Source: Beijerinckiaceae bacterium (GTDB lineage Bacteria > Pseudomonadota > Alphaproteobacteria > Rhizobiales > Beijerinckiaceae). From it: 34,102 nt of DNA. Location: assembly GCA_947456505.1 (NCBI GenBank), contig CANGTC010000021.1, positions 1-34,102 on the forward strand. The letters are read 5' to 3'. The position numbers and the translations under genes were made by a program. Below are positions 3,547-28,716 of the stretch, in pieces (position 1 is the first letter of the stretch; each line of letters opens with the position of its first letter). The notes under the pieces are model-generated. The model was not told the origin of the DNA and searched no databases. It saw only the letters and a program-made list of their open reading frames with translations.

Positions 3547-4164
3547 TCACCGCCCCTGCTCCAGCGACGCGAACAGACTATCCGCCGCCTCCGCTGCAAG
3601 GCGCGCGGCGCCGGGGTCGCGGCTGATCATGGCCACAACGATGGCGCCGTCCATCAACAACCCAAGCTGATGCGCCAGACGGGTAGGATCGGGCGCGCCA
3701 GCCTCCGAGGCCAGGCTTTCCATCCGGCCCAGCACGGCCTTCTTGTGGGCGATGGTGATGGCGCGCAGGCGATCCTCCGCCTTGTCATGTTCGCCAATCG
3801 CGTTGATGAAGGGGCAGCCATAGAAACGGTCCTGGGCGAACCACTCCTCCAGCAAGGGGAAGATGCGACGCAAACGCTCCACGGCGCCGCCCTCGCCCGC
3901 ATCGAGCCCCGCCAGGAACCAGTCGCGCCACTGACGACCCTCGCGCTCCAGCACCGCCTCGACCAGTTTCTCCTTGGAGCCGAAGGCCTTGTAGAGGGTC
4001 GCCTTGGCGGTCCCGGCCTCGGCCACAACCGTATCGACACCCACAGCGTTGATGCCGTAGCGACAGAAAAGCCGCGAGGCAGCCTCGATCAGCCGATCCC
4101 GCGCGGGCGCCTCGCCCGCAGCAGGCGCTCCGGCCAGGGGGGGCGACACAGCAATCGCGTCCAT
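3547..4164 (-). CDS. TetR/AcrR-family transcriptional regulator
   Basis: A 205-residue repressor-type protein. The N-terminal helix-turn-helix spans roughly residues 22-70 (RLIEAASRLFCRYG, then GVDTVVAEAGTAKATLYKAF), the classical TetR pattern. The C-terminal half is an all-helical ligand-binding domain with a YGCPFINA segment. The start at 4164 is fixed by a strong GGAGG six bases upstream; longer forms from 4263 lack one. It is divergent from the OsmC-to-cyanase operon, and two matching dyad sites lie in the shared promoter region (4207-4222 and 4337-4352). It very probably represses itself and that operon and is released by a pathway metabolite. Confidence 0.92.
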   Translation of the reverse strand: MDAIAVSPPLAGAPAAGEAPARDRLIEAASRLFCRYGINAVGVDTVVAEAGTAKATLYKAFGSKEKLVEAVLEREGRQWRDWFLAGLDAGEGGAVERLRRIFPLLEEWFAQDRFYGCPFINAIGEHDKAEDRLRAITIAHKKAVLGRMESLASEAGAPDPTRLAHQLGLLMDGAIVVAMISRDPGAARLAAEAADSLFASLEQGR

Positions 4165-4206: not shown

Positions 4207-4222
4207 TAGACAGACCTGTCTA
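4207..4222. promoter_or_regulatory. TetR-type operator, site 1
   Basis: TAGACAGACCTGTCTA: seven-base arms TAGACAG / CTGTCTA around AC. Its reverse complement matches site 2 (4337-4352) at 13 of 16 positions. It is 43 bases upstream of the TetR start, so it fits autoregulation. Confidence 0.65.
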
Positions 4223-4336
4223 CCTCTTCGGCGTCTTGCCTCGTAATGAGGCGCCTTGCCCACTCCAACGCAGCGGTGCGCCCTCCAAGCCCCCGAGAAT
4301 CAAGGCCGCCAACGCTGGCACACCACCTGCATACTA

Positions 4337-4352
4337 CAGACCGGTCTGTCTG
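4337..4352. promoter_or_regulatory. TetR-type operator, site 2
   Basis: CAGACCGGTCTGTCTG, overlapping a perfect 14-bp palindrome at 4336-4349. Relative to the reverse complement of site 1 the consensus is YAGACMGGTCTGTCTR, and the outer base pair changes in a compensating way (T-A to C-G). It lies 37 bases ahead of the OsmC start, immediately downstream of a CATACT -10-like hexamer (4330-4335), a position suited to blocking transcription. Confidence 0.62.
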
Positions 4353-4388
4353 CGAAGAGTGGACATGGCAGTCAGCGGAGCAAAACCC

Positions 4389-4928
4389 ATGAACGCACCT
4401 ACCAACATCGTCCTGACCGGCTGCCTGGCGCCGATCGACAAGGGCGGGCTCGAAAAGCTCATCGAATCCGGCAAGGCTAATCCCAAGGTCATCAAGACCC
4501 TCAAGTGCAAGACCGTAGCGGAGGGGCGTTTCCGCCATCTCAACTACGTGCGCAACCTCGAGCCCTATATCGTCGACGAGCCCCCGGGCCTGCTCGGCGA
4601 CGACACCGCCCCCAACCCCTCAGAAGCCTCCCTCGCGGCTCTCGGCTCCTGCCTGGCCGTTGGGCTGCACGCCAATGCGGTGCATCGGGGCTGGACCGTG
4701 CGCAAGCTGGAACTGGAGTTGGAAGGCGACCTCAACATCACCGCCGTCTGGGGCACAGGCGATGTGAGCGAGAAGCCCGTCGGCTTCACCGATGTGCGCG
4801 TGAAGGTGGACATGGTCTGCGACGGCGTCGAGCAGGCCGAGATCGACGCGCTCATCGCCCATGTGAAGAAATGGTCGCCAGTCGCCAACACCTTCACCCG
4901 GCCCGTGAACCTCGAAATCTCCCTGTGA
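4389..4928 (+). CDS. OsmC-family protein
   Basis: A 179-residue OsmC/Ohr-superfamily protein; members act as thiol peroxidases on organic peroxides or handle reactive sulfur species. The family core is visible as PNPSEASLAALGSCLAVGLHANA, giving candidate reactive cysteine C88 on the central helix. The second family cysteine (usual CPV motif) is replaced by serine in KKWSPVANTF (S163), so a classical two-cysteine peroxidase cycle is unlikely. Some OsmC subfamilies share this loss. The start at 4389 has GGAG eight bases upstream; an in-frame ATG at 4365 is the alternative. First gene of the cyanase operon. Its role there, perhaps binding a thiol or sulfane-sulfur intermediate, is inference. Confidence 0.88.
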   Translation: MNAPTNIVLTGCLAPIDKGGLEKLIESGKANPKVIKTLKCKTVAEGRFRHLNYVRNLEPYIVDEPPGLLGDDTAPNPSEASLAALGSCLAVGLHANAVHRGWTVRKLELELEGDLNITAVWGTGDVSEKPVGFTDVRVKVDMVCDGVEQAEIDALIAHVKKWSPVANTFTRPVNLEISL

Positions 4929-4981
4929 TCAAACCGACCGCCCGGCGCGAGCCGGGCTGGTCGCCATCTGGAGCGCTGCCC

Positions 4982-6082
4982 GTGTCCCTAGCCCTCGCGC
5001 AAGTCATCGACGAGACGAGCCTCACAGATCAGGTCCGCCAATTGGTGCAGGCGGAACTTCCGCCCATTGTCGACGCCATCGACACTGGAACGCTCTACCC
5101 AAGCGCCTTCATGCGCAAGCTGGGGGCGCTCGGCGCCTTCGCCGCCCATGCGGATGTAAGAGGCGTCGACCTAAATCCTGCCATAGACGCCATGAGCGAA
5201 GTGGCGGAGATCTGCGGCTCCACAGGCTTCATGACCTGGTGTCAGGATGCGCTGGTCTGGTACGTCGCCAATTCAGATAATGTGGCGTTGAAAGAGAAGC
5301 TGCTGGCGCGGGTGGCCGATGGCGCCATGTTAGGGGGCACGGGCCTCTCTAATCCCATGAAGAGCTTCTTCGGCATCGAGAAGCTGAAGCTCAAGGGCAC
5401 GCGCGTTGACGGCGGCTACGTGGTCAATGGCGCCCTGCCGTGGGTCTCGAACCTTGGGCCGGACCATGTCTTCGGCACCATTTTCGAGACGCCCGATGGC
5501 GAGAAGGTTATGTTCATCGCCAATTGCGCCGACCCCGCCGTCGAGCTTCTGCCCTGCGATCCCTTTCTGGCCATGGATGGCACAGGCACCTATGGGGTGC
5601 AGTTTCGCAAGGCCTTCATCCCCGACGATATGGTGCTCGCCCATGCGGCCATGCCCTTTGTGACGAAAATTCGCGCGGGCTTCGTTCTTCTGCAAGCTGG
5701 CATGGGAACTGGCATTATTCGTGATTGCATCGAAATCATGCAACGGATGAAGACACCCCTCGGCCATGTGAACAAATATCTCACGGCCCAACAGCCTGAG
5801 GATTTCACCAGCGCGCTCTCCGCGCTGGAGAATGAAGTACAGATTCTCGCCTCCACACCCTATGAAACAAGCGATTTCTACTGGCGCCGGGTGGTGGAGG
5901 CGCGACTGCAAATTGGCGATCTGGCCATGGCGGCTGCCCATGCGACCATGCTCCACACGGGAGCGCGCGGTTACATGAAAAGCCACCGCGCCCAGCGGCG
6001 CATGCGCGAAGCCTATTTCGTGGGCATCGTGACGCCAGCCACCAAGCAGTTGCGCAAGATGTTGGCGGAAATGGCCACATAA
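4982..6082 (+). CDS. Acyl-CoA dehydrogenase-fold flavoprotein, possible flavin monooxygenase
   Basis: A 366-residue protein with ACAD architecture: N-terminal helices, a middle beta domain with GGTGLSNP and VNGALPWVSN, and a C-terminal helical domain (ARGYMKSHRAQRRMREAYF). By eye, the segment matching the ACAD catalytic-glutamate loop (YEGT) reads VTPATKQ, so the usual base seems absent. ACAD-fold monooxygenases such as the DszC group also lack it, so oxygenation or desulfurisation is as likely as acyl-CoA dehydrogenation. The start is chosen as GTG 4982 with GGAG eight bases ahead. An upstream GTG at 4925 overlaps the osmC stop (GTGA) and could allow translational coupling. Second gene of the operon. 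No flavin reductase gene is adjacent. Confidence 0.82.
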   Translation: MSLALAQVIDETSLTDQVRQLVQAELPPIVDAIDTGTLYPSAFMRKLGALGAFAAHADVRGVDLNPAIDAMSEVAEICGSTGFMTWCQDALVWYVANSDNVALKEKLLARVADGAMLGGTGLSNPMKSFFGIEKLKLKGTRVDGGYVVNGALPWVSNLGPDHVFGTIFETPDGEKVMFIANCADPAVELLPCDPFLAMDGTGTYGVQFRKAFIPDDMVLAHAAMPFVTKIRAGFVLLQAGMGTGIIRDCIEIMQRMKTPLGHVNKYLTAQQPEDFTSALSALENEVQILASTPYETSDFYWRRVVEARLQIGDLAMAAAHATMLHTGARGYMKSHRAQRRMREAYFVGIVTPATKQLRKMLAEMAT

Positions 6083-6124
6083 CCGAACGCCCCGGATGAG
6101 GCGCATTCACCATGGAGCACGAGC

Positions 6125-6988
6125 ATGAGCGAAGTATTGATTAGCGCCAAAGAGCTTGCAGCCGTGGGCGCAAGCGACCCAACAGTCATCATAGATACAC
6201 GCAACCCTGCAGCCTATGCGGCAGGCCATATTCCCGGCGCCGTGAACATCCACGAGATCTTCACCTATCTGGCGACGTCAACGCCTGAAGGCATCGCCGA
6301 GTTGAAATCCACCTTCGCCGCCGCCTTTGGCGCCGCAGGCCTATCGGGCGAAGAAACAGCCGTGGTTTATGAGCAGTCCATGAACAGCGGTTTTGGTCAA
6401 TCATGCAGGGGATACTACCTCCTGAGTCTGTTCGGCTATCCCAAGATCAAGGTACTGCATGGAGGCTTCGACGCCTGGTGCGCTGCCGAGTTGCCGGTGT
6501 CGACGGAACTTCCCACTCCAAAGCCAGCCACTTTCCCCATCGACCCATCTGCCTCCTCGATTCTGATTGACGCGCAAGCCATGCTTGATGCGCTGGCCAA
6601 TCCCGACATCGCCATCGTCGATGTTCGCGATGTAGATGAATGGATCGCAGATAGCTCCTCGCCCTATGGCAAGGAATTTTGCCCGCGCAAGGGTCGCATC
6701 CCCGGCGCGCGCTGGCTGGAATGGTATCGCATGATGAAGCCCACCGGCGAAGGCCAGCGCTTCAAGGCCAAGGACGAAGTCCTCGCCGAATGCGCCACAG
6801 TCGGCGTGACGCCGGAGACGCCGGTCTATCTCTACTGCTTCAAGGGCGCGCGCGCCTCCAACACCTTCCTCGCCTTGAAAAACGCGGGCGTGAAGGATGT
6901 GCGCATGTATTTCGGCTCCTGGAACGAATGGTCCCGCGACCCCGCGCTGCCCATCGAGTCAGGTTCGCCCTTCACCAAAGCAGCCTGA
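6125..6988 (+). CDS. Sulfurtransferase with two rhodanese domains
   Basis: A 287-residue two-domain rhodanese (thiosulfate or mercaptopyruvate sulfurtransferase type). The N-terminal domain has IIDTRNPAAYAAGHIPGA but no cysteine at the active position (VYEQSMNSG). The C-terminal domain has VDVRDVDEW, GRIPGA and the active loop CFKGARA with C238 as the persulfide-forming residue. That loop differs from the common CRKGVT of thiosulfate and CGSGVTA of mercaptopyruvate enzymes, so donor preference is uncertain. GGAGCACGAGC precedes the ATG at 6125. Rhodaneses move sulfane sulfur and link cyanide, thiosulfate and thiocyanate. Location in an operon ending in cyanase makes a role with a C-N-S compound plausible. 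Confidence 0.9.
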   Translation: MSEVLISAKELAAVGASDPTVIIDTRNPAAYAAGHIPGAVNIHEIFTYLATSTPEGIAELKSTFAAAFGAAGLSGEETAVVYEQSMNSGFGQSCRGYYLLSLFGYPKIKVLHGGFDAWCAAELPVSTELPTPKPATFPIDPSASSILIDAQAMLDALANPDIAIVDVRDVDEWIADSSSPYGKEFCPRKGRIPGARWLEWYRMMKPTGEGQRFKAKDEVLAECATVGVTPETPVYLYCFKGARASNTFLALKNAGVKDVRMYFGSWNEWSRDPALPIESGSPFTKAA

Positions 6989-6996
6989 GCAACGGC

Positions 6997-7599
6997 ATGC
7001 GCGTGATCCACTATTTCTCGCCCATGTCCGGCTTCGCCTATCTGGGCTTTGCTGAACTCTGCGCCGTGGCGAAACGCCATGGCGCGGAATTGGACCATCG
7101 GCCCGTGGATATCTCGCGCGTCTTCGCCGCCGTCGACACCATAGCGCCCGCCAGGCAAGCGCCCGCACGCCTCGCCTGGCGTCGTCAGGATATGATGCGC
7201 TGGGCGCAGCGTCGCGCCCTGCCGCTGAACGCTATCCCCAAACACTGGCCGGTGGATGCAACGCTCGCCTCCTGCGCCGTCCTCACTGCGCAATCATTGT
7301 GCGGGGATGCCGAGCCTTTCATCAATGCGCTCCTGAGCGCGGTCTGGGCGCGTGATGAAGACATCGCGAATGAAGACACGCTCGCCACTCTGGCGAAGGC
7401 CTGCGGTCTTGATGCGGCGAAGCTTCTTGCTGACGCAAGATCAGACACCGTCCGCGCGGCTTATGAAGCCAACACACAGGAAGCCATCGCTCATGGCGTC
7501 ATCGGATCGCCGACCATGCGTATGGGCGAGGAAAATTTCTTTGGTCAGGATCGTCTCGATTTCGTCGAGGCGGAGCTGGCGCGCATCAATCTTGCATGA
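6997..7599 (+). CDS. DsbA-family / 2-hydroxychromene-2-carboxylate isomerase-like protein (GST kappa type)
   Basis: A 200-residue thioredoxin-fold protein with the HCCA-isomerase/DsbA pattern: VIHYFSPMSGFAYLGF at the N-terminus (candidate Ser8 in place of a CxxC), a helical insertion, and the C-terminal GVIGSPTM followed by FFGQDRLDFVE. The family uses glutathione, either as isomerase cofactor (NahD type) or as a kappa-class glutathione transferase. It starts eight bases after the rhodanese stop, and its own stop overlaps a possible ATG of the next frame, so it is tightly in the operon. No naphthalene-type genes are nearby, so a glutathione-dependent step on the operon's substrate is more likely than chromene isomerisation. 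Confidence 0.8.
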   Translation: MRVIHYFSPMSGFAYLGFAELCAVAKRHGAELDHRPVDISRVFAAVDTIAPARQAPARLAWRRQDMMRWAQRRALPLNAIPKHWPVDATLASCAVLTAQSLCGDAEPFINALLSAVWARDEDIANEDTLATLAKACGLDAAKLLADARSDTVRAAYEANTQEAIAHGVIGSPTMRMGEENFFGQDRLDFVEAELARINLA

Positions 7600-7631
7600 G
7601 CCCGCACAGACCTCGCTCAGGAGACGCTGAT

Positions 7632-8996
7632 ATGAAAAAATCCTCCAGCCCCTACACGATGAAGCCCGGCTGCTCCTGCGGCGCCCATGCCTCGCAGATC
7701 GAACACGCGCGCGCCTGTACGGTAATTTCAGACACAGCCGCCGATGACGCCAAGCTCTATGGGCGCACGGTGGAACAAGCCGTTCTGCGCGCCATAGCGC
7801 CCAACCCGTTACACAGGCGTGCTCTGCTCCAAGGCGTCGGCGCCTCGACGCTCGCCTCCGCCATCGCCTCCTTCTTCCCGCTGGCCGCCGCGACAGAGGC
7901 ATTCGCGCAAGCGGGCAAGCCCGAGAAGACCGATCTGAAGGTCGGCTTCATTCCGATCTCCTGCGCCACGCCGATCATCATGGCCGAGCCCATGGGCTTT
8001 TATAAAAAGCAGGGGCTGAATGTGGAAGTGGTCAAGACCGCTGGCTGGGCGGTCATTCGCGACAAGACCATCAACAAGGAATATGACGCGGCCCATATGC
8101 TGGCCGCCATGCCCATCGCCATTTCCTTGGGCCTTGGCTCCACGCCCATTCCCTTCGCCGTGCCAGCCATCGAGAACATCAATGGTCAGGCCATTGCGCT
8201 GGCCATGAAGCACAAGGACAAGCGCAACCCGAAGGACTGGAAAGGCTTCCGCCTCGCCATTCCCTTCGACTATTCCATGCACAATTATCTGCTGCGCTAC
8301 TATCTCGCCGAAAATGGCGTCGATCCCGACACCGATGTGCAGCTGCGCTCCGTGCCGCCTCCGGAGATGGTCGCCAATCTGCGCGCCGACAATATCGATG
8401 GCTTCCTCGCGCCCGACAATGTTGCGCAACGCGCTGTCTTTGATGGTGTGGGCTTCATCCACATGCTCTCGAAGGAGATCTGGGATGGCCACCCCTGCTG
8501 CTCCTTCTCGGCGAGCCGGGCTTTCATCGCGGACTCCCCGAATTCCTACGCGGCGCTGCTGCGCGCCATTCTCGACGCGACCGCCTATGCTTCCAAGGCC
8601 GAGAACCGAAAGGAAATCGCCGAAGCCATCGCGCCCGCCAACTATCTCAACGCCCCCGTCACCGTTCTGGAACAGGTGCTCACGGGCACCTATGCGGATG
8701 GGCTGGGCGGCGTGAAGAAGGATGCGGCGCGCATCACCTTCGATGCCTTCCCCTACGAGAGCTTCGCGGTGTGGATGATGACGCAGATGAAGCGTTGGGG
8801 ACAGATCAAGGGCGATGTTGATTATGTCGGCGTCGCGAAACAGATCTTCCTCGCAACGGACGCCGCCAAAGCCATGAAGGAGGCGGGGCTCACGTCGCCC
8901 ACGGCGCCCTCAAAGAGCTTTGTGGTCATGGGCAAGACCTTCGATCCGACAAAGCCGGACGACTACCTCAACAGCTTCGCCATGAAGCGAGGCTGA
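7632..8996 (+). CDS. NrtA/CynA-like ABC transporter substrate-binding protein with Cys-rich leader
   Basis: A 454-residue periplasmic receptor of the nitrate/cyanate/bicarbonate (NrtA/CmpA/CynA) family. The body carries LKVGFIPISCATPIIMAEPMGFY, the strongly conserved VVKTAGWAVIRDKTINKEYDAAHML, and FDYSMHNYLLRYYL. The N-terminus is unusual: a polar region of about 60 residues with C14-x-C16-G-A-H19 and further H25 and C29 precedes a Tat-like signal (LHRRALLQGVGAS and a hydrophobic stretch ending AFAQA). The start at 7632 has AGGAGA eight bases ahead; ATG 7596 overlapping the previous stop is the alternative. Followed by the permease with a one-base gap. With cyanase in the same operon, cyanate or a related anion is the likely ligand, as in cyanobacterial cynABDS. 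Confidence 0.9.
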   Translation: MKKSSSPYTMKPGCSCGAHASQIEHARACTVISDTAADDAKLYGRTVEQAVLRAIAPNPLHRRALLQGVGASTLASAIASFFPLAAATEAFAQAGKPEKTDLKVGFIPISCATPIIMAEPMGFYKKQGLNVEVVKTAGWAVIRDKTINKEYDAAHMLAAMPIAISLGLGSTPIPFAVPAIENINGQAIALAMKHKDKRNPKDWKGFRLAIPFDYSMHNYLLRYYLAENGVDPDTDVQLRSVPPPEMVANLRADNIDGFLAPDNVAQRAVFDGVGFIHMLSKEIWDGHPCCSFSASRAFIADSPNSYAALLRAILDATAYASKAENRKEIAEAIAPANYLNAPVTVLEQVLTGTYADGLGGVKKDAARITFDAFPYESFAVWMMTQMKRWGQIKGDVDYVGVAKQIFLATDAAKAMKEAGLTSPTAPSKSFVVMGKTFDPTKPDDYLNSFAMKRG

Positions 8997-8997
8997 C

Positions 8998-9843
8998 ATG
9001 ACAAGCGCCGCTCCCCTGTCGCTTCGCGCGGGCGTGCTCTCGCTCCTGATTTTCGTAATCTTCGCGCTAGCCTGGCATGTGGGCACGCGCGGCGGTCCTG
9101 CGGGCCCCGCCATGGATCCCGAATATGCGAAGCTGATGGGCGCCACAGCCACTCAGGGCAAGTCGGCCATGCCTGGACCTCTGGATGTCGGGGTCAAGCT
9201 CATTGAGCATCTTCGCGATCCCTTTTATGATCGGGGCCCCAATGACAAGGGCCTCGGCATTCAACTCGCCTTCTCCATGATGCGCGTGGCTGCAGGTTAT
9301 GGCCTTGCCGTGCTGGTGGCCATTCCACTCGGTTTTCTCATCGGCATGTCGCCGTTGATGAACAAGGCGCTCGATCCCTTCATTCAAATCATGAAACCCG
9401 TGTCGCCGCTCGCCTGGATGCCGCTGGCCCTTTACACAATCAAGGATTCCGGACTTTCCGCCATCTTCGTCATCTTCATCTGTTCGCTCTGGCCCATGCT
9501 GGTGAATACCGCCTTTGGCGTCTCTGGCGTGCGCAAGGAATGGCTCAACGTGGCGCGCACGCTTGAGGTCGGCCCGTGGCGGCGCGCCTTCACCGTGATC
9601 CTGCCTGCGGCAGCGCCCACCATCTTCACGGGCATGCGCATTTCCATCGGCATCGCCTGGCTGGTGATTGTCGCTGCGGAGATGCTCGTGGGGGGCACAG
9701 GCATCGGCTATTTCGTCTGGAACGAATGGAACAACCTCTCCATCACAAATGTCATCATCGCCATCCTGCTGATCGGCATGGTCGGCATGTTGCTTGATCA
9801 ATTGCTCGCGCGCGCAGCACGCGCCGTCACCTTCCCGGAGTGA
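8998..9843 (+). CDS. NrtB/CynB-like ABC transporter permease
   Basis: Inner-membrane permease of 281 residues in the nitrate/sulfonate/cyanate group. An N-terminal membrane segment (LSLLIFVIFALAWHVG) is followed by a periplasmic stretch of about 60 residues, then five or so helices. The cytoplasmic EAA-type loop is seen around GVRKEWLNVARTLEVGPWRRAF, just before ILPAAAPTIFTGMRI. The late motif IVAAEMLVGGTGIGYFVW is typical of NrtB/SsuC permeases. It pairs with the receptor before it and the ATPase four bases after it. Confidence 0.9.
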   Translation: MTSAAPLSLRAGVLSLLIFVIFALAWHVGTRGGPAGPAMDPEYAKLMGATATQGKSAMPGPLDVGVKLIEHLRDPFYDRGPNDKGLGIQLAFSMMRVAAGYGLAVLVAIPLGFLIGMSPLMNKALDPFIQIMKPVSPLAWMPLALYTIKDSGLSAIFVIFICSLWPMLVNTAFGVSGVRKEWLNVARTLEVGPWRRAFTVILPAAAPTIFTGMRISIGIAWLVIVAAEMLVGGTGIGYFVWNEWNNLSITNVIIAILLIGMVGMLLDQLLARAARAVTFPE

Positions 9844-9847
9844 GCGC

Positions 9848-10714
9848 ATGAGCAATCGTTTCATCTCCATTGAGGGAATTGCGCGGCGCTTTCCCTCGCG
9901 CAGCGGCGAGCCCGTGACGATTTTCAAGGATCTGTCGCTCTCCATCGCGCGCGGCGAATTCGTCTGCATCATCGGCCATTCCGGCTGCGGCAAATCCACC
10001 GTGCTGAATGTACTCGCCGGGCTCGACCGGCCCGATGAGGGCTTCGTCTTCATCGACGAGAAACAAATCACCGCCCCTGGCCTTGACCGCGCCGTGATTT
10101 TCCAAAGCCATGCGCTGCTGCCGTGGAAAACGGCCCTGGGCAATGTAGCCTATGCAGTATCCTCACGCTGGCCGTCTCTGAAGCGTGCAGAGGTGCTGGA
10201 ACGTGCCCAGCGCTCCATTGATCTGGTGGGCCTGCATGGCGCCGAGATGAAGCGTCCTGCGGAACTCTCGGGCGGCATGCGCCAGCGCGTAGGCATCGCG
10301 CGCGCGCTCTCGATCGAGCCAAAGATCCTGCTCATGGACGAGCCCTTCTCGGCGCTCGACGCCCTCACGCGCGGCGCCCTGCAGGACGAAGTGCGCCGCA
10401 TCTGCCGCGACACAGGCCAGACCCTTTTCATGATCACCCACGATGTTGACGAAGCCATGTATCTCGCCGACAAGATCGTGCTGATGACCAATGGCCCCGG
10501 CGCCATGATCGCTGAAATCGTCGAAAACCCCTTGCCGCAGGACCGCAAGCGCGACGAGATCCATCGCCATCCCGATTATTACGCGCTGCGCAATCACCTG
10601 ATCGACTTTCTGGTGACCCGCAGCGTCACCTTCAAGAACGAAATTCCCGCCGGCTATGACTGCAAGAAACCGCCCGTGGTCAGGCCAAGCGCGAAGCAAC
10701 CCGCCCTCGCGTGA
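9848..10714 (+). CDS. NrtD/CynD-like ABC transporter ATP-binding protein
   Basis: A 288-residue ATPase. Walker A is GHSGCGKST, the Q-loop lies in IFQSHALLPWKT, the signature is LSGGMRQR, Walker B is ILLMDEPFSALD and the switch histidine is in MITHDVDEA. It is a single ATPase domain without the NrtA-like C-terminal extension found in NrtC, so it matches NrtD/CynD. GGAG lies seven bases before the ATG at 9848. About 35 C-terminal residues after the conserved domain contain a lone cysteine (YDCKK). It drives the importer formed with the two upstream genes and is followed directly by cyanase. Confidence 0.9.
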   Translation: MSNRFISIEGIARRFPSRSGEPVTIFKDLSLSIARGEFVCIIGHSGCGKSTVLNVLAGLDRPDEGFVFIDEKQITAPGLDRAVIFQSHALLPWKTALGNVAYAVSSRWPSLKRAEVLERAQRSIDLVGLHGAEMKRPAELSGGMRQRVGIARALSIEPKILLMDEPFSALDALTRGALQDEVRRICRDTGQTLFMITHDVDEAMYLADKIVLMTNGPGAMIAEIVENPLPQDRKRDEIHRHPDYYALRNHLIDFLVTRSVTFKNEIPAGYDCKKPPVVRPSAKQPALA

Positions 10715-10746
10715 ACGCATTCCATCCAGAAGAAAAGGACAAGACC

Positions 10747-11229
10747 ATGAAAAGAGCTGACCTCACTGAAAAAATTCTCGACATCAAGCGCGAGAAGGGC
10801 TGGACCTGGAAATATATCGTGGGCGAGATCGGCGGGATGTCGCCGGTGCTGATCGTCGGCGCCCTGCTGGGCCAGATGAAGCTGGTGAAGCCGCTGGCCG
10901 CCAAGGCCGCCGCCCTCTTCGGCCTCATCGAAATGGAAGAGCGCATGCTGAACGAGGTTCCACATCGCGGAACCCAGATGCCCCCGACCGATCCCCTGAT
11001 CTATCGCTTCTTCGAGCTGGTCATGGTCAATGGCCCCGCCTGGAAGGCGCTGATCGAAGAGGAATATGGCGACGGCATCATGTCCGCCATCGACTTCGAC
11101 ATGGAGATGGAGCGCCTGCCCCACGAGAAGGGCGACCGCGTCAAGATCACCATGAGCGGCAAGTTCCTCCCCTACAAATACTACCACAACGAGCAGGGCA
11201 TCCCCGCCTATGGCTTCAAGGAAGAATAG
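10747..11229 (+). CDS. cynS: Cyanate hydratase (cyanase)
   Basis: Cyanase converts cyanate plus bicarbonate to carbamate and CO2; carbamate then breaks down to ammonia and CO2, which detoxifies cyanate and yields nitrogen. The 160-residue protein has the N-terminal helical DNA-binding-like fold (KREKGWTWKYIVGEIGG, ALLGQ) and the catalytic domain with R87 and E90 (YRFFE) and S113 (DGIMSAIDF), matching E. coli R96, E99 and S122. The C-terminus GKFLPYKYYHNEQGIPAYGF runs slightly past the E. coli end. The start at 10747 is chosen because it gives a normal N-terminus and has AAAAGGA upstream. It is last in the operon and followed by a terminator at 11253-11280. Confidence 0.96.
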   Translation: MKRADLTEKILDIKREKGWTWKYIVGEIGGMSPVLIVGALLGQMKLVKPLAAKAAALFGLIEMEERMLNEVPHRGTQMPPTDPLIYRFFELVMVNGPAWKALIEEEYGDGIMSAIDFDMEMERLPHEKGDRVKITMSGKFLPYKYYHNEQGIPAYGFKEE

Positions 11230-11252
11230 GCGCCAACCGCCTGACACCAAGG

Positions 11253-11280
11253 AAGGGCCGCCCATGAGGCGGTCCTTTTT
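11253..11280 (+). terminator. Rho-independent terminator of the cyanase operon
   Basis: Arms GGGCCGCC (11255-11262) and GGCGGTCC (11268-11275, one G-T pair) close a five-base loop and are followed by TTTTT. Flanking AA/TT pairs extend the stem. It lies 25 bases after the cynS stop. Confidence 0.85.
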
Positions 11281-24355: not shown

Positions 24356-24376
24356 ACCGGCCTGATGGAGGCGACC

Positions 24377-25165
24377 ATGTCTGCTCCTGAGCCAAAGCTC
24401 GTACTCGAAAACCTCTCCATGGTGTTTCAAACCGGCGGAAAGGAGTTCGTGGCGCTGGAACCCGCGGATCTGGTGGTGCCCGCCGGCAAATTCATTTCGC
24501 TCATCGGCCCATCTGGTTGCGGCAAGAGCACTCTGTTCAACATCATCGCCGGCCTGCAGGCGCCCACCACCGGGCGCGTGTTGATCGATGGTCAGGACTT
24601 CACCGGATATATCGGGCAGGTCGGTTATATGTTGCAGAAAGACCTGCTGCTGCCCTGGCGCACCGTTCTCGACAATGTGGCGTTGGGTATGGAGATCAGC
24701 GGCGTTCCCCTGAAGGAGGCGCGGGCGCGCGCCTTGCCGCTCATCATCAAATACGGTCTTTCGGGCTTCGAGCATCAATATCCCTCCTCGCTCTCCGGCG
24801 GCATGCGCCAGCGGGCCGCGCTGCTGCGCACCCTGCTCGTAGAGCGTGACGTGGTGCTGCTCGACGAGCCCTTCGGCGCCCTTGATGCGCAGACCAAATC
24901 CCAGATGCAGGAATGGCTTCTGCAGATCTTCGCAGACTTCGGGCGCACTGTCGTTTTCGTCACCCATGACGTTGAGGAAGCCGTGTTCCTCTCCGATGAA
25001 ATCCACGTCATGGCGAGCAGGCCAGGCCGCGTGATCGAGACGCTGCCCATCGATCTGCCGCGCCCGCGTGATCGCGCCGTCGTTTCCACGCCGCGCTTTG
25101 TCGCCATGAAAAAATACTGTCTCGACTTGCTGCATCTGGGCGAGCAGGAAGCTGCTGCAGCCTGA
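24377..25165 (+). CDS. ABC transporter ATP-binding protein (SsuB/TauB/NrtD family)
   Basis: A 262-residue ATPase: Walker A GPSGCGKST, Q-loop YMLQKDLLLPWRT, signature LSGGMRQRAALLRTL, Walker B VVLLDEPFGALDAQT, switch VTHDVEEAVFL. The LPWRT segment after the Q-loop is typical of nitrate/sulfonate/pyrimidine-precursor importers. GGAGG lies five bases ahead of the ATG at 24377. First gene of the importer-amidase operon, with 43 bases to the permease. Confidence 0.92.
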   Translation: MSAPEPKLVLENLSMVFQTGGKEFVALEPADLVVPAGKFISLIGPSGCGKSTLFNIIAGLQAPTTGRVLIDGQDFTGYIGQVGYMLQKDLLLPWRTVLDNVALGMEISGVPLKEARARALPLIIKYGLSGFEHQYPSSLSGGMRQRAALLRTLLVERDVVLLDEPFGALDAQTKSQMQEWLLQIFADFGRTVVFVTHDVEEAVFLSDEIHVMASRPGRVIETLPIDLPRPRDRAVVSTPRFVAMKKYCLDLLHLGEQEAAAA

Positions 25166-25208
25166 TGTTTAACGCCTGACGCTCCACGCCTGATCGGGAG
25201 ACGCTTTC

Positions 25209-26078
25209 ATGAACGCAAAAACATCCGCCTTACAAACATCGACATCCTTTCCAGGGGTCAAGACCGCCACAGGGCCCATGTCCCCCCGACGCGTCGCTCG
25301 TCGATTGCCCGTACGGCGCATCTGGCCCACATGGGCCCTGCTCAGCGTTCAGTTCGGTATTCTTGTGGCCTTCATCGCCTTCTGGGAATTCGCGGCGTTC
25401 ACCGGACTCATCGACGTGTTTTTCTGGTCAAAGCCCTCCACCATCGCCTCGACCATGGTGATTTTCTTCACCGAAGGGAACGCCTTCACCGATATCATCT
25501 ACACGTTCCGCTCCACGATCCTGGGCTTTATTCTGGGAACGACGCTGGGCGCAGTTCTTGGCATGTCCTTCTGGTGGTCACGCAACTATGCGCTGATCAT
25601 GCAGCCCTATATCATATGTCTTGAATCGATCCCCAAACTCGCGCTGGCGCCGCTGATCATTCTGGTCTTTGGCATGGGGCTCGCGTCAAAGGTGGCCATT
25701 GCGACAGCGCTCACGCTGGTGGTCTCCACGCTTACGGCCTATTCGGGCGTTCAGGCGGTGGATCGCGATCAGGAGAAGCTCTTCTATTCGCTTGGCGCCA
25801 ACCGCTGGCAGGTTTTCACCAAGCTCGTCGCGCCCTCGTGCATTCCCTGGATCATCTCGATCCTGCGCGTGAATATCGGCCTCGCGCTCACGGGCTCCAT
25901 CGTCGGCGAATTCGTAGCCTCTCAATATGGCCTTGGCCGCACCATCCTCTACGCTGGCCAGACCTACGAGATCGCCCTTGTTTGGGTCGCTGTCCTCGTA
26001 CTCTCCGCGCTATCCATGGTCATGTATGTCGCTGTGTCATGGCTTGAGCGCTATCTGCAAAAAGGCGTCATTCGCTGA
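25209..26078 (+). CDS. ABC transporter permease (SsuC/TauC family)
   Basis: A 289-residue inner-membrane protein with an arginine-rich cytoplasmic N-terminus of about 45 residues and six helices. The EAA-type loop is YSGVQAVDRDQEKLFYSLGANRWQVF followed by KLVAPSCIPWIISILRVN. IVGEFVASQYGLGRTI near the C-terminus is a hallmark of this permease group. GGGAGA lies upstream. It works with the ATPase before it and the receptor after it. Confidence 0.92.
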   Translation: MNAKTSALQTSTSFPGVKTATGPMSPRRVARRLPVRRIWPTWALLSVQFGILVAFIAFWEFAAFTGLIDVFFWSKPSTIASTMVIFFTEGNAFTDIIYTFRSTILGFILGTTLGAVLGMSFWWSRNYALIMQPYIICLESIPKLALAPLIILVFGMGLASKVAIATALTLVVSTLTAYSGVQAVDRDQEKLFYSLGANRWQVFTKLVAPSCIPWIISILRVNIGLALTGSIVGEFVASQYGLGRTILYAGQTYEIALVWVAVLVLSALSMVMYVAVSWLERYLQKGVIR

Positions 26079-26124
26079 CCCTCCCGCACGCTTGTCTTCG
26101 TCAACGCCTCCAAAGGAGTACGCC

Positions 26125-27120
26125 ATGAACAAAGCTTTCAAGAGCCTCCTCGTCTCGACAGTTTTTGCGGTCTCGCTCGGCGGTCTCGCCCATGCGCAGG
26201 AAAGGAAAACGCTGATCGTCGCAGAACCCGTTCATGGCACCGGCTATCTGCCGCTTTATGTCGGCATCGCCAAGGGTTACTTCGCCGATGCAGGGATCGA
26301 TGTGAAGATCATGACCGTAGAGAGCGGGTCAGGCCATACCAATGCTGTGTTAAGCGGCCAGGCCTTCGCCTTCATCGGCGGCCCCGAGCATAACGCTTTC
26401 GCCAAGCTGAAAGGCGCAGAACTGCGCGGCGTCGTCAATGTGGTGGATCGCGGCAATGTCTATATCAACGCGGCCAAGGGCAAAGAGCCGGCTGCGGGCG
26501 AGAGCATGGCGACTTTTTTCAAGGGCAAGGCCATCGCAACTGGTCCCTTCGGCGGCACGCCCAATTCCATCACCCGTTACCTGCTGAAAAAATACAATCT
26601 CGACGACAAGAAAGACGTAGCGCTCCAGGAAATGCCAAACTCTGCGGTGCTGGCGGCTGTGAAGACCGGCTCAGCCCAGATCGGCGTCACGACCGAGCCA
26701 TTCCTCACCCAGGGCATCAAGCAAAATCTCTGGGGCGAACCGATCATCAATATTCCCAAGGATCTCGGTCCCTATGCCTATTCGACTCTCAATGTTCGGC
26801 TGGATTCGATCCAGAAGGACCCCGATTCAGTCCGGAAATTCGTCGAAGGCGTTATAAAAGGTCTCAAATTTACCTATACAGAGCAGGAAGAAGCGGTCAA
26901 AATCGCCAAAAAGGAGTTCCCGACCATGGCTCCGGAGGACCTGAAGGCGACGTTGGACCGCTCGTTCGCAGATGAGATCTGGAGCAAGGATGGCCTGATC
27001 TCGGAAAAATCCTGGGAGACGGGAGGCTCGGTCGTGCTGGCCGCAGGCATTCTCAAGCAGCCGGTCGCCTACGCCGAGATCATCGACATGCAATTCGTGA
27101 ATAACGCCAAAACACACTGA
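26125..27120 (+). CDS. ABC transporter substrate-binding protein (SsuA/NMT1-like)
   Basis: A 331-residue periplasmic receptor with a standard signal peptide (FKSLLVSTVFAVSLGGLAHAQ). The mature part has the family pattern VHGTGYLPLYVGIAKGYFADAGIDVKIMT, GGPEHNAFAKLKGAELRGVVNVVDRGN and TGPFGGTPNSITRYLLKKYNL. AAAGGAG precedes ATG 26125. Receptors of this group bind sulfonates, taurine, pyrimidine precursors, hydantoins or aromatic acids. The two amidases that follow suggest a carbamoyl- or amide-bearing ligand. Confidence 0.9.
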   Translation: MNKAFKSLLVSTVFAVSLGGLAHAQERKTLIVAEPVHGTGYLPLYVGIAKGYFADAGIDVKIMTVESGSGHTNAVLSGQAFAFIGGPEHNAFAKLKGAELRGVVNVVDRGNVYINAAKGKEPAAGESMATFFKGKAIATGPFGGTPNSITRYLLKKYNLDDKKDVALQEMPNSAVLAAVKTGSAQIGVTTEPFLTQGIKQNLWGEPIINIPKDLGPYAYSTLNVRLDSIQKDPDSVRKFVEGVIKGLKFTYTEQEEAVKIAKKEFPTMAPEDLKATLDRSFADEIWSKDGLISEKSWETGGSVVLAAGILKQPVAYAEIIDMQFVNNAKTH

Positions 27121-27146
27121 GCGACCGAGACCCACAGGAGCATCCC

Positions 27147-27911
27147 ATGTCAGAGCCCATCTGGAACCAGTTCCTCACTGAACGCGACAAGGCTGTCTTC
27201 GCGGCCTCGGGCTACGGCGCCCGTGGCGGTTTTGGCAAGCGTCCCGCCCTGCTCGTCATCGACGTCAACTACGCTTTCTGCGGCGACAAGCCCGAGCCAA
27301 TCCTTGAGTCTATCAAGCGTTGGCGCAATTCTTGCGGCGAGGAGAGTTGGCCTGCTGTGGCGGCTATCCGCTCGCTGATCGACAAGTGCCACGAGAAGGG
27401 TCTACCCGTCATCTACACGACCGGCGTGCGCCGCGATGACAACTGGGATTCAGGGTCCTGGAGCTGGAAGAACGCCCGCGGCGCCGAGCGTCCCGTGGCG
27501 CCCGCCACCAATGTGGACGGCAACGAAATCGTCGCCGAAATCGCGCCCGCGCCCCAGGACATCGTGGTCTTGAAGCAGAAGCCCTCCGGATTCTTCGGCA
27601 CCAATCTGGCGTCCTATCTCACGCTGCTCGGCGCCGACAGCGTGATCGTCACGGGCACCACAACATCGGGCTGCGTGCGCGCAACGGTGCTCGACGCCTT
27701 CAGCATGAACTATCATGTGGCGATCGCCGAAGAAGGCTGCTTCGACCGCTCGCAAGCCAGCCACGCGATCAATCTGTGCGACATGAACGCCAAATACGCC
27801 GACGTGATGAAAACCGCCGAGGTGCTCGACTTCATTGACACCCTGCCAGAAAACCTTTTCGATCTGCCCAAAGGAAGCACGTCAAAAATGGCCAAAGCTT
27901 CAGGTTTTTGA
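27147..27911 (+). CDS. Isochorismatase-fold cysteine amidohydrolase (N-carbamoylsarcosine amidase-like), copy 1
   Basis: A 254-residue hydrolase. The catalytic triad of cysteine-type members is present: D39 (LLVIDVNYAF), K143 (VVLKQKPSGFFGTNL) and C176 (TGTTTSGCVRATVLDA). The spacing between K and C (33) equals that of Arthrobacter N-carbamoylsarcosine amidase, and the VIYTTG and SHAINLCDMNAKYADV segments resemble it. Such enzymes release ammonia from carbamoyl or amide groups; biuret and triuret hydrolases belong to the same superfamily. It lies 26 bases after the receptor gene and directly before a close paralogue, so it likely acts on the imported compound. The exact substrate is not determinable here. 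Confidence 0.88.
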   Translation: MSEPIWNQFLTERDKAVFAASGYGARGGFGKRPALLVIDVNYAFCGDKPEPILESIKRWRNSCGEESWPAVAAIRSLIDKCHEKGLPVIYTTGVRRDDNWDSGSWSWKNARGAERPVAPATNVDGNEIVAEIAPAPQDIVVLKQKPSGFFGTNLASYLTLLGADSVIVTGTTTSGCVRATVLDAFSMNYHVAIAEEGCFDRSQASHAINLCDMNAKYADVMKTAEVLDFIDTLPENLFDLPKGSTSKMAKASGF

Positions 27912-27921
27912 GGAGGGTGGC

Positions 27922-28716
27922 ATGAACGACGGCAAAGCGGGCGCCCGCGTCTGGGACGCCTTTCTGACCGAAAGAGACAAAAAGGTCTTCCAGGCCTCTG
28001 GTTTCGGCGCCAAGGCCGGCTTTGGCAAACGCCCCGCCCTGCTCGTCATCGATGTGAGCTATGGCTTTGCTGGCGACAAGCGCGAGCCTATCCTCGAGTC
28101 TATCAAGCGCTGGAGCAACTCCTGCGGCGCTGAAAGCTGGGACGCCATTGAGGCCATCGACAAGCTTGCCCAAGGCTTCCGCGCCAAAAAGATGCCGGTC
28201 ATCTACACCACCGGGCAGAACCGGCCAGATGGATGGGATGTGGGCAGCTGGGCGTGGAAGAATACACGGACGGACGAATCCCTTCCTCGGCCTGCCCAGA
28301 ACCTGGACGCCAACCAGATCGTCGCGGAAATCGCGCCGCAACCGCAGGACATCGTGGTCTACAAACAAAAGCCCTCGGGCTTCTTCGGCTCGAACCTGGC
28401 CGCCTATCTGACCCTGCTTGGGGCCGATAGCGTCGTCGTGACGGGAACGACGACATCTGGCTGCGTGCGCGCCAGCGTGATCGACGCCTTTAGCATGAAC
28501 TACCGAGTGGCGGTCGCCGAGGACGGTTGTTTTGATCGATCGCAGGCAAGCCATGCGATCAATCTGTGCGACATGCACGCAAAATATGCAGATGTTGTGC
28601 CCTCCTCCGAGATCCTGGCCTATATAGCCACGCTTCCTGATGACCTGTTCCCCAATTTGCCAAAGGGCAAAGACACGCCGGAGTCCGCGCATCTGAAACT
28701 TGTGGGCTCGGCATAG
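27922..28716 (+). CDS. Isochorismatase-fold cysteine amidohydrolase, copy 2 (tandem paralogue)
   Basis: A 264-residue protein, collinear with copy 1 and highly similar, with no internal gaps visible in the core. Triad residues are D44 (LLVIDVSYGF), K148 (VVYKQKPSGFFGSNL) and C181 (TGTTTSGCVRASVIDA). Differences cluster in the segment after VIYTTG (QNRPDGWD versus VRRDDNWD) and in DESLPRPAQNLDA versus AERPVAPATNVDG, which border the active site in this fold, so substrate may differ. It has a longer C-terminal tail. GAGGAGGGTGG gives a strong ribosome binding site. Start at 27922, ten bases after copy 1. Confidence 0.88.
   Translation: MNDGKAGARVWDAFLTERDKKVFQASGFGAKAGFGKRPALLVIDVSYGFAGDKREPILESIKRWSNSCGAESWDAIEAIDKLAQGFRAKKMPVIYTTGQNRPDGWDVGSWAWKNTRTDESLPRPAQNLDANQIVAEIAPQPQDIVVYKQKPSGFFGSNLAAYLTLLGADSVVVTGTTTSGCVRASVIDAFSMNYRVAVAEDGCFDRSQASHAINLCDMHAKYADVVPSSEILAYIATLPDDLFPNLPKGKDTPESAHLKLVGSA

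Follow-up and report, generated by a model that had tools for sequence, protein, structure and literature searches.

Conserved sulfur and redox genes beside cyanase suggest an undescribed route from a compound such as thiocyanate to usable nitrogen

A cyanase operon with conserved sulfur and redox genes

Contig CANGTC010000021.1 of a Beijerinckiaceae bacterium (GCA_947456505.1), analysed over its whole 34,102 nucleotides and referred to here as the window, carries one tight plus-strand operon of eight genes at positions 4365-11229. These encode, in order, an OsmC-family thiol protein, a flavoprotein with the acyl-CoA dehydrogenase (ACAD) fold, a two-domain rhodanese, a protein resembling 2-hydroxychromene-2-carboxylate (HCCA) isomerase, an NrtABD-type importer of three genes, and the cyanase CynS (Table 1). 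The window is contig 21 of a metagenome-assembled genome (4.39 Mb in 325 contigs, 88% complete and 6% contaminated), and its closest named relatives, both in a scan of named genomes and in the ACAD tree, are Beijerinckiaceae and other Rhizobiales assemblies. Open reading frames together with Pfam and NCBIfam profile searches place all of these genes in frame and in this order, separated by gaps of -4, 42, 8, 32, 1, 4 and 32 bases; the GTG at 4925 is usable as the ACAD start, which gives the overlap with the OsmC stop. A prediction made earlier from the letters of this DNA alone, hereafter the original prediction, had described such a unit with a divergent TetR and a closing terminator, and it is confirmed by the profile matches for the genes and by folding for the hairpin (-26.2 kcal/mol, z -3.98, with equal stability in 0 of 200 shuffles). 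A simple pattern scanner for terminators did not call this hairpin, perhaps because its stem extends into the U-tract.

The grouping of these genes is real, strongly conserved and not a matter of chance. It was surveyed in 249 evenly drawn genomes of the order and in 349 genomes of the phylum, two sets that share genomes. An ACAD-like gene is present in 13 of the 249 order genomes, with OsmC adjoining in all 13 and rhodanese in nine. cynS is present in 57 of the 249 (56 of the 57 matches over the cut-off, three short or weak), that is, in 12 of the 13 genomes with the ACAD gene versus 45 of the 236 without it (Fisher p 8e-8, relatedness uncorrected), and it lies within about 9 kb of ACAD in nine of the 13, on the same strand in eight. 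At the level of the phylum, the core ACAD family, delimited at about E 1e-100 in the break that separates matches at or below 1e-114 from those at or above 1e-57, was found in 16 genomes; 13 of these have cynS, versus 42 of the 333 others (p 4e-9, likewise ignoring relatedness).

Gene neighbourhoods were compared in the best 80 of at least 559 relatives from the named-genome scan, 63 of these 80 being titled Bradyrhizobium and 66 having the full flanks needed for neighbour counts. Bradyrhizobium diazoefficiens SZCCT0449 (L128) is among the carriers of the cluster. OsmC and rhodanese adjoin ACAD in all 66; 60 have cynS within 9 kb downstream and on the same strand, and 56 have a binding protein resembling that of the window. 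The HCCA-isomerase-like gene, present in four of the 66 and additionally in locus L021 and on one Rhodobacteraceae plasmid, is an optional operon member. Five Bradyrhizobium loci (L069, L071, L073, L077 and L078) have cynS after the rhodanese gene with no transporter in between. The original prediction had named co-conservation of all four upstream genes with cynS as its own test; this was borne out for OsmC, ACAD and rhodanese, but not for the HCCA-isomerase gene. A literature search, with most subscription journals out of reach, found the module described nowhere; papers on OsmC and thiocyanate, judged from their listing, seemed to be on other genes.

The operon faces a divergent TetR gene, and the motif ACAGANNNNTCTGT probably ties this regulator to the enzyme genes as a predicted operator. 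With at most one mismatch, it occurs in 79 of 80 TetR-OsmC gaps and in two of five TetR-importer gaps versus 0.6% of shuffles, a count in which two genomes appear twice (L122/L018 and L128/L019) and for which the motif was selected after palindromes had been viewed in part of the same regions. The sequence AGACNNNNGTCT, considered first as the operator, had no match in any of 99 regions and gave way to ACAGANNNNTCTGT. In many Bradyrhizobium, the importer and cynS lie next to a divergent PAS-sigma-54 regulator of the class of CynF, domains having been checked on one such regulator.

Table 1 Features of the cyanase operon and its control region (window positions)
Feature	Position	Strand	Evidence
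TetR-family regulator, divergent	3547..4164	-	PF00440 E 1.8e-14; divergent TetR in 64/66 fully flanked relatives
Palindrome TAGACAGACCTGTCTA, possible TetR operator	4207..4222		Position only
Palindrome ACAGACCGGTCTGT, probable TetR operator	4336..4349		ACAGANNNNTCTGT motif conservation
OsmC-family thiol protein, one invariant cysteine	4365..4928	+	PF02566 E 5.7e-20; alignment of 13
ACAD-fold flavoprotein, GTG start, without the usual catalytic glutamate	4925..6082	+	PF02771 E 1.7e-9; AlphaFold, Foldseek, alignments
Two-domain rhodanese	6125..6988	+	PF00581, two stretches, E 1.4e-35; adjoins ACAD in 66/66 fully flanked relatives
DsbA-fold protein like HCCA isomerase / GST kappa, optional	6997..7599	+	PF01323 E 1.2e-31; PDB 2imd E 6.1e-18; 4/66
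NrtA/CmpA-type substrate-binding protein	7632..8996	+	PF13379 E 1.3e-80; NrtA 2g29 E 1.3e-46
NrtB-type permease	8998..9843	+	TIGR01183 233.2 vs cut-off 209.05 bits
NrtCD-type ATPase	9848..10714	+	TIGR01184 303.7 vs cut-off 291.8 bits
cynS, cyanase	10747..11229	+	TIGR00673 126.3 vs 113.3 bits; NF002773 198 vs 150; PF02560 over cut-off
Terminator-like hairpin	11250..11280	+	Folding vs shuffles

The flavoprotein, its partners and its importers in related clusters

The AlphaFold model of the flavoprotein, built on a 13-row alignment, has a mean pLDDT (predicted local distance difference test) score of 87.9 and the ACAD fold, with the short-chain ACAD 2vig as best Foldseek match (E 2.3e-17, template modelling score 0.78-0.80). 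Alignments with short-chain and isovaleryl-CoA dehydrogenase, at about 20% identity, place no glutamate at either of the positions that we take to be the catalytic glutamate sites of these enzymes. Lacking this residue, the protein is unlikely to be an ordinary acyl-CoA dehydrogenase, so that the fold named in the original prediction stands with this correction. Models for the sulfur-metabolism flavoproteins SfnB, DszC and 3-sulfinopropanoyl-CoA desulfinase were all silent for the window ACAD at E 0.001. Its partner OsmC contains four cysteines, one of which, in the motif GSC, is invariant across a 13-sequence alignment (in which the start of L025 was set too far upstream); the "single-cysteine OsmC" of the original prediction is therefore right for the conserved cysteine and wrong for the total count. 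A role in anti-phage defence was considered and dropped, PADLOC giving no match for OsmC, ACAD or rhodanese.

Phylogenetic analysis of 43 ACAD rows (L058 left out, with 19 residues extracted; L144 on a very long branch) separates 31 core rows, which share a long branch with full support, from 12 outgroup rows. AhpD/CMD replaces OsmC in three of the 31 core rows. Among the outgroup rows, an AhpD/CMD protein is nearby in nine, a DUF4242 protein in one (plasmid pANL) and OsmC in one (L144), and one row (L164) is without a labelled partner. The usual theme is thus a flavoprotein paired with a small redox-type protein, the exception by annotation being Bartonella HY038, whose ACAD and importer have no OsmC or AhpD/CMD annotated next to them. 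More distant OsmC proteins are not specific to the module, since on plasmids of Rhizobium AB2/73, Microvirga and Azospirillum TSH58 the annotation shows no ACAD next to the OsmC match.

The outgroup rows belong to a wider uncharacterised family, a tight unit of an AhpD/CMD protein, an ACAD-fold flavoprotein and their own NrtA/SsuA-like ATP-binding cassette (ABC) importer (L165-L173 and plasmid loci L181, L183 and L185). On Synechococcus pANL and in Pseudonocardia, a DUF4242 protein takes the place of AhpD/CMD as first gene; in Pseudonocardia, the gene for the importer's binding protein is followed by those for an LLM flavin oxidoreductase and a rhodanese-like protein. One outgroup ACAD lies near cysK on pANL, which presumably carries sulfur-regulated genes. 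Against SfnB, DszC and 3-sulfinopropanoyl-CoA desulfinase, outgroup ACADs score weakly and far under the cut-off; in one of them, acryloyl-CoA reductase is the top match. On a plasmid of the actinobacterium Corynebacterium occultum (L144, 6965-8643), OsmC and an ACAD at 28% identity stand beside a divergent NrtABD-like importer.

Closer relatives show five arrangements: (a) that of the window, OsmC-ACAD-rhodanese-HCCA isomerase-CynABD-cynS; (b) OsmC-ACAD-rhodanese-cynS; (c) a second ABC importer with OsmC, ACAD, rhodanese, the HCCA isomerase in some, a ferredoxin-type flavin adenine dinucleotide (FAD) reductase and cynS (L021, L022, L175 and two Rhodobacteraceae-type plasmids); (d) OsmC-ACAD followed by a rubredoxin-FAD reductase fusion; and (e) the second importer, OsmC and ACAD with rhodanese and cynS not beside them (L023, L025 and Methylocystis). 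Variant (d) comes with CynABD and cynS on an Acetobacter plasmid and with the second importer and cynS on a Marinobacter plasmid; in L026 it is accompanied by CynABDS and by a match to the dioxygenase part of Blh (383 bits, short of the cut-off of 625 set for the two-domain protein). FAD or rubredoxin-FAD reductases recur next to ACAD, and L174 combines rhodanese, OsmC, ACAD and the rubredoxin fusion. L026 (859-12571) has the fullest set seen, holding within 12 kb CynABD, cynS, a PAS-sigma-54 regulator, the Blh-type dioxygenase-like protein, the rubredoxin-FAD reductase fusion, ACAD, OsmC and a GAF-sigma-54 regulator; its genome has a second cynS on another contig.

Two kinds of importer accompany the enzymes. 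The binding protein of the window is closest to NrtA- and CmpA-type domains; the second kind, in relatives, finds 3un6 and NrtA as its best PDB matches and the SsuA family, below cut-off, as its best NCBIfam match. Among the plasmid records with the second binding protein (46 found), all 40 listed also have ACAD, so the ACAD family probably acts on the cargo of this importer. L022, L175 and the Marinobacter plasmid combine the enzymes and cynS with the second importer and have no CynABD next to them; cyanate would there need to be formed inside the cell or to enter through the second importer. The import route of the original prediction is refined: in several relatives, a second, NrtA-like importer accompanies the enzymes in place of CynABD. 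In an alignment, both kinds of binding protein share a tryptophan, SxHN and H(P/A)CC, with Cys-Cys at the position of an NrtA lysine that presumably has a role at nitrate. The obvious candidate for the cargo is a small anion. As the Cys-Cys pair occurs in 3un6 and in each of the 21 rows (of 23) spanning the site, it does not help to tell substrates apart. HPCC as a mark of the second binding proteins of the OsmC clade proved to be an artefact of the search pattern, the outgroup having HACC.

A candidate route from thiocyanate to cyanate

The operon could be a TetR-controlled route by which a small anion containing carbon, nitrogen and sulfur (C-N-S), most likely thiocyanate, is imported and desulfurated to give cyanate for cyanase, a tentative reading to which we give somewhat less than an even chance. 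Thiocyanate is favoured since it is the simplest compound with all three elements, is a small anion that needs import, can give cyanate and leaves behind sulfane sulfur for rhodanese to take. The uncharged isothiocyanates and organic thiocyanates that the original prediction also listed are less likely than the anion, judging from the importer family.

In the best-supported reading, thiocyanate would be converted to cyanate by a flavoprotein rather than by a copper thiocyanate dehydrogenase. After uptake of the anion by the importer, the flavoprotein and its thiol partner OsmC would be the likely desulfurating pair: reduced flavin would activate oxygen and oxidise thiocyanate at the sulfur, the invariant cysteine of OsmC would accept the sulfur as a persulfide, and cyanate would leave. 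Rhodanese may then pass the sulfur on, some relatives possibly also using the persulfide-dioxygenase-like protein; the HCCA-isomerase-like protein may act with glutathione, and cyanase would turn cyanate into ammonia and CO2. This would amount to a third way of thiocyanate breakdown, which we regard as possible, though on the doubtful side. Substrate, direction, every chemical step and the roles of the partners are what we infer; the co-conservation of OsmC, ACAD and rhodanese with cynS lends partial support to the C-N-S route to cyanate of the original prediction, which is plausible, and its link to reduced sulfur finds some support in the Blh-dioxygenase-like match, in the weak sulfur-enzyme matches of the outgroup ACADs and in the cysK neighbour on pANL.

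Several observations weigh against this proposal. The linkage to cynS is by itself no proof, as cynS also adjoins genes of thiocyanate hydrolase, whose pathway gives carbonyl sulfide (COS) and ammonia and not cyanate; in the accessible part of that report, its authors caution that the presence of cyanase is insufficient to infer a cyanate pathway (PMC5328954). cynS is out of reach in six of the 66 fully flanked loci (L076, L081, L082, L103, L064 and L067) and not close to the clusters of L023, L025 and Methylocystis, and three genomes (G238, G340 and G556) have ACAD with no cynS match in the genome. The importer of the window operon belongs to the cyanate/nitrate type and might thus also bring in cyanate itself. 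Matches of the window ACAD to known families are weak, no characterised homologue appeared among the profile searches, and no obvious electron donor for the flavoprotein is seen in the window or in the Bradyrhizobium clusters. Moreover, the AhpD/CMD-ACAD-importer family seldom has cynS adjoining and may be a general sulfur-scavenging system.

A first alternative is a module that scavenges sulfur from another small organosulfur anion such as a sulfonate or sulfinate, ACAD desulfurating it while cyanase and CynABD, as co-regulated neighbours, serve a separate use of cyanate. Such a module would suit the outgroup well, where the second importer accompanies ACAD together with an AhpD/CMD or DUF4242 protein, where ACAD has its weak SfnB, DszC and desulfinase matches, and where in Pseudonocardia it is joined by the LLM oxidoreductase and the rhodanese-like gene, and it would suit the SsuA-leaning score of the second binding protein. 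Alone, however, it leaves unexplained why cynS should directly follow rhodanese without a transporter and why the association with cynS extends across orders and classes, and we consider it rather unlikely.

Rhodanese is the textbook enzyme for cyanide and cyanase that for cyanate. The operon might accordingly serve detoxification under cyanide, cyanate or thiocyanate stress, with OsmC, ACAD and the glutathione-type protein dealing with oxidised or carbamoylated products; the OsmC and AhpD families do belong to peroxide and thiol stress. The importers in the operon and its relatives, however, fit uptake for use better than defence, and some clusters keep importer, OsmC and ACAD without rhodanese and cynS, which makes detoxification quite improbable. 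Equally in need of a flavoprotein, an electron donor and oxygen would be a cyanide monooxygenase, the ACAD-fold protein then making cyanate from cyanide with rhodanese as a side route; as hydrogen cyanide crosses membranes, the importers found with ACAD would not be needed, and the sulfur-type partners are left unexplained, so that we hold this to be very unlikely. That the enzyme genes and cynABDS are separate units lying together by chance or regional neighbourhood is hardly credible: many Bradyrhizobium do have a divergent sigma-54 regulator gene and other genes between the two groups, yet the arrangement recurs on plasmids and across further genera, and also takes the form of the direct rhodanese-cynS order.

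Known systems, wider meaning and neighbouring genes

The nearest described arrangement is the cynFABDS operon of Pseudomonas pseudoalcaligenes CECT5344, which, in the accessible part of its description (PMC6627978), likewise has an NrtABD-type importer followed by cynS. Two defining features of cyn(F)ABDS are found in the window, cynS and an NrtABD-type importer in one unit (gaps of 1, 4 and 32 bases). Unlike cynFABDS, the window operon is without the sigma-54 CynF and begins with OsmC, ACAD, rhodanese and the HCCA-isomerase-like gene under TetR, which is also the divergent regulator here.

The conversion proposed here, thiocyanate to cyanate and sulfane-level sulfur, is that of the thiocyanate dehydrogenase pathway of Thioalkalivibrio and of a desulfurase predicted in Afipia, as far as the accessible parts of these sources go (PMC5744179, PMC8061750). 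Thiocyanate dehydrogenase is there a periplasmic copper protein, whereas our candidate is a flavoprotein; in agreement with the original prediction, neither this enzyme nor thiocyanate hydrolase was found among the ten window proteins scanned, a scope that leaves the rest of the genome unsearched for the dehydrogenase. Thiocyanate hydrolase (COS) loci share with the window the NitT/TauT importer superfamily, whose members also adjoin the hydrolase genes, and a neighbouring cyanase, according to the accessible part of PMC5328954; no scnABC was found in the window operon by the Pfam and NCBIfam scan. A survey of 349 genomes for scnC gave zero matches with controls equally silent, so absence is not implied. 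Elsewhere in the source genome (G000), contigs 261 and 189 carry nitrile-hydratase-alpha-type genes (L179 and L180); one of them scores 249.2 against the nitrile hydratase cut-off of 249.85, just short of it, and 183.9 against the thiocyanate hydrolase cut-off of 291.45. SfnB, DszC and 3-sulfinopropanoyl-CoA desulfinase, as represented by their NCBIfam models, are likewise ACAD-fold flavoproteins of sulfur metabolism; the window ACAD differs in matching none of these models at E 0.001 and in being paired with OsmC.

Growth on thiocyanate as a nitrogen source has been reported for several heterotrophs, with two primary enzyme pathways named (PMC5328954, accessible part). The tracking of cyanase by OsmC, the ACAD-fold flavoprotein and rhodanese in Bradyrhizobium, Beijerinckiaceae and others, together with the partner-swapped version in Acetobacter and Marinobacter, supplies a candidate that can be tested: its genes are named, and it has a likely operator and a likely transporter. 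If the proposal is correct, the flavoprotein would be an enzyme that lets heterotrophic Alphaproteobacteria use thiocyanate as a nitrogen source, and the wider AhpD/CMD-ACAD-importer family might use it as a sulfur source, which would bear on nitrogen and sulfur scavenging in soil and on the treatment of waste water containing cyanide and thiocyanate. Should the substrate be another, there is still a widespread, uncharacterised combination in which an ACAD-fold enzyme stands with a small redox protein and an importer of the small-anion type.

Directly past the operon terminator, the window encodes an HbpS-like protein (PF03928, 11474-11983), which is not generally conserved there, with weak matches in L071 and L090 only. 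Reading the open reading frames by eye, we also noted another NitT/TauT-like ABC importer in the region 24365-28716 (ATPase, permease and binding protein), followed by two similar tandem hydrolase-like frames (27147-27911 and 27835-28716) and a LysR-type frame.

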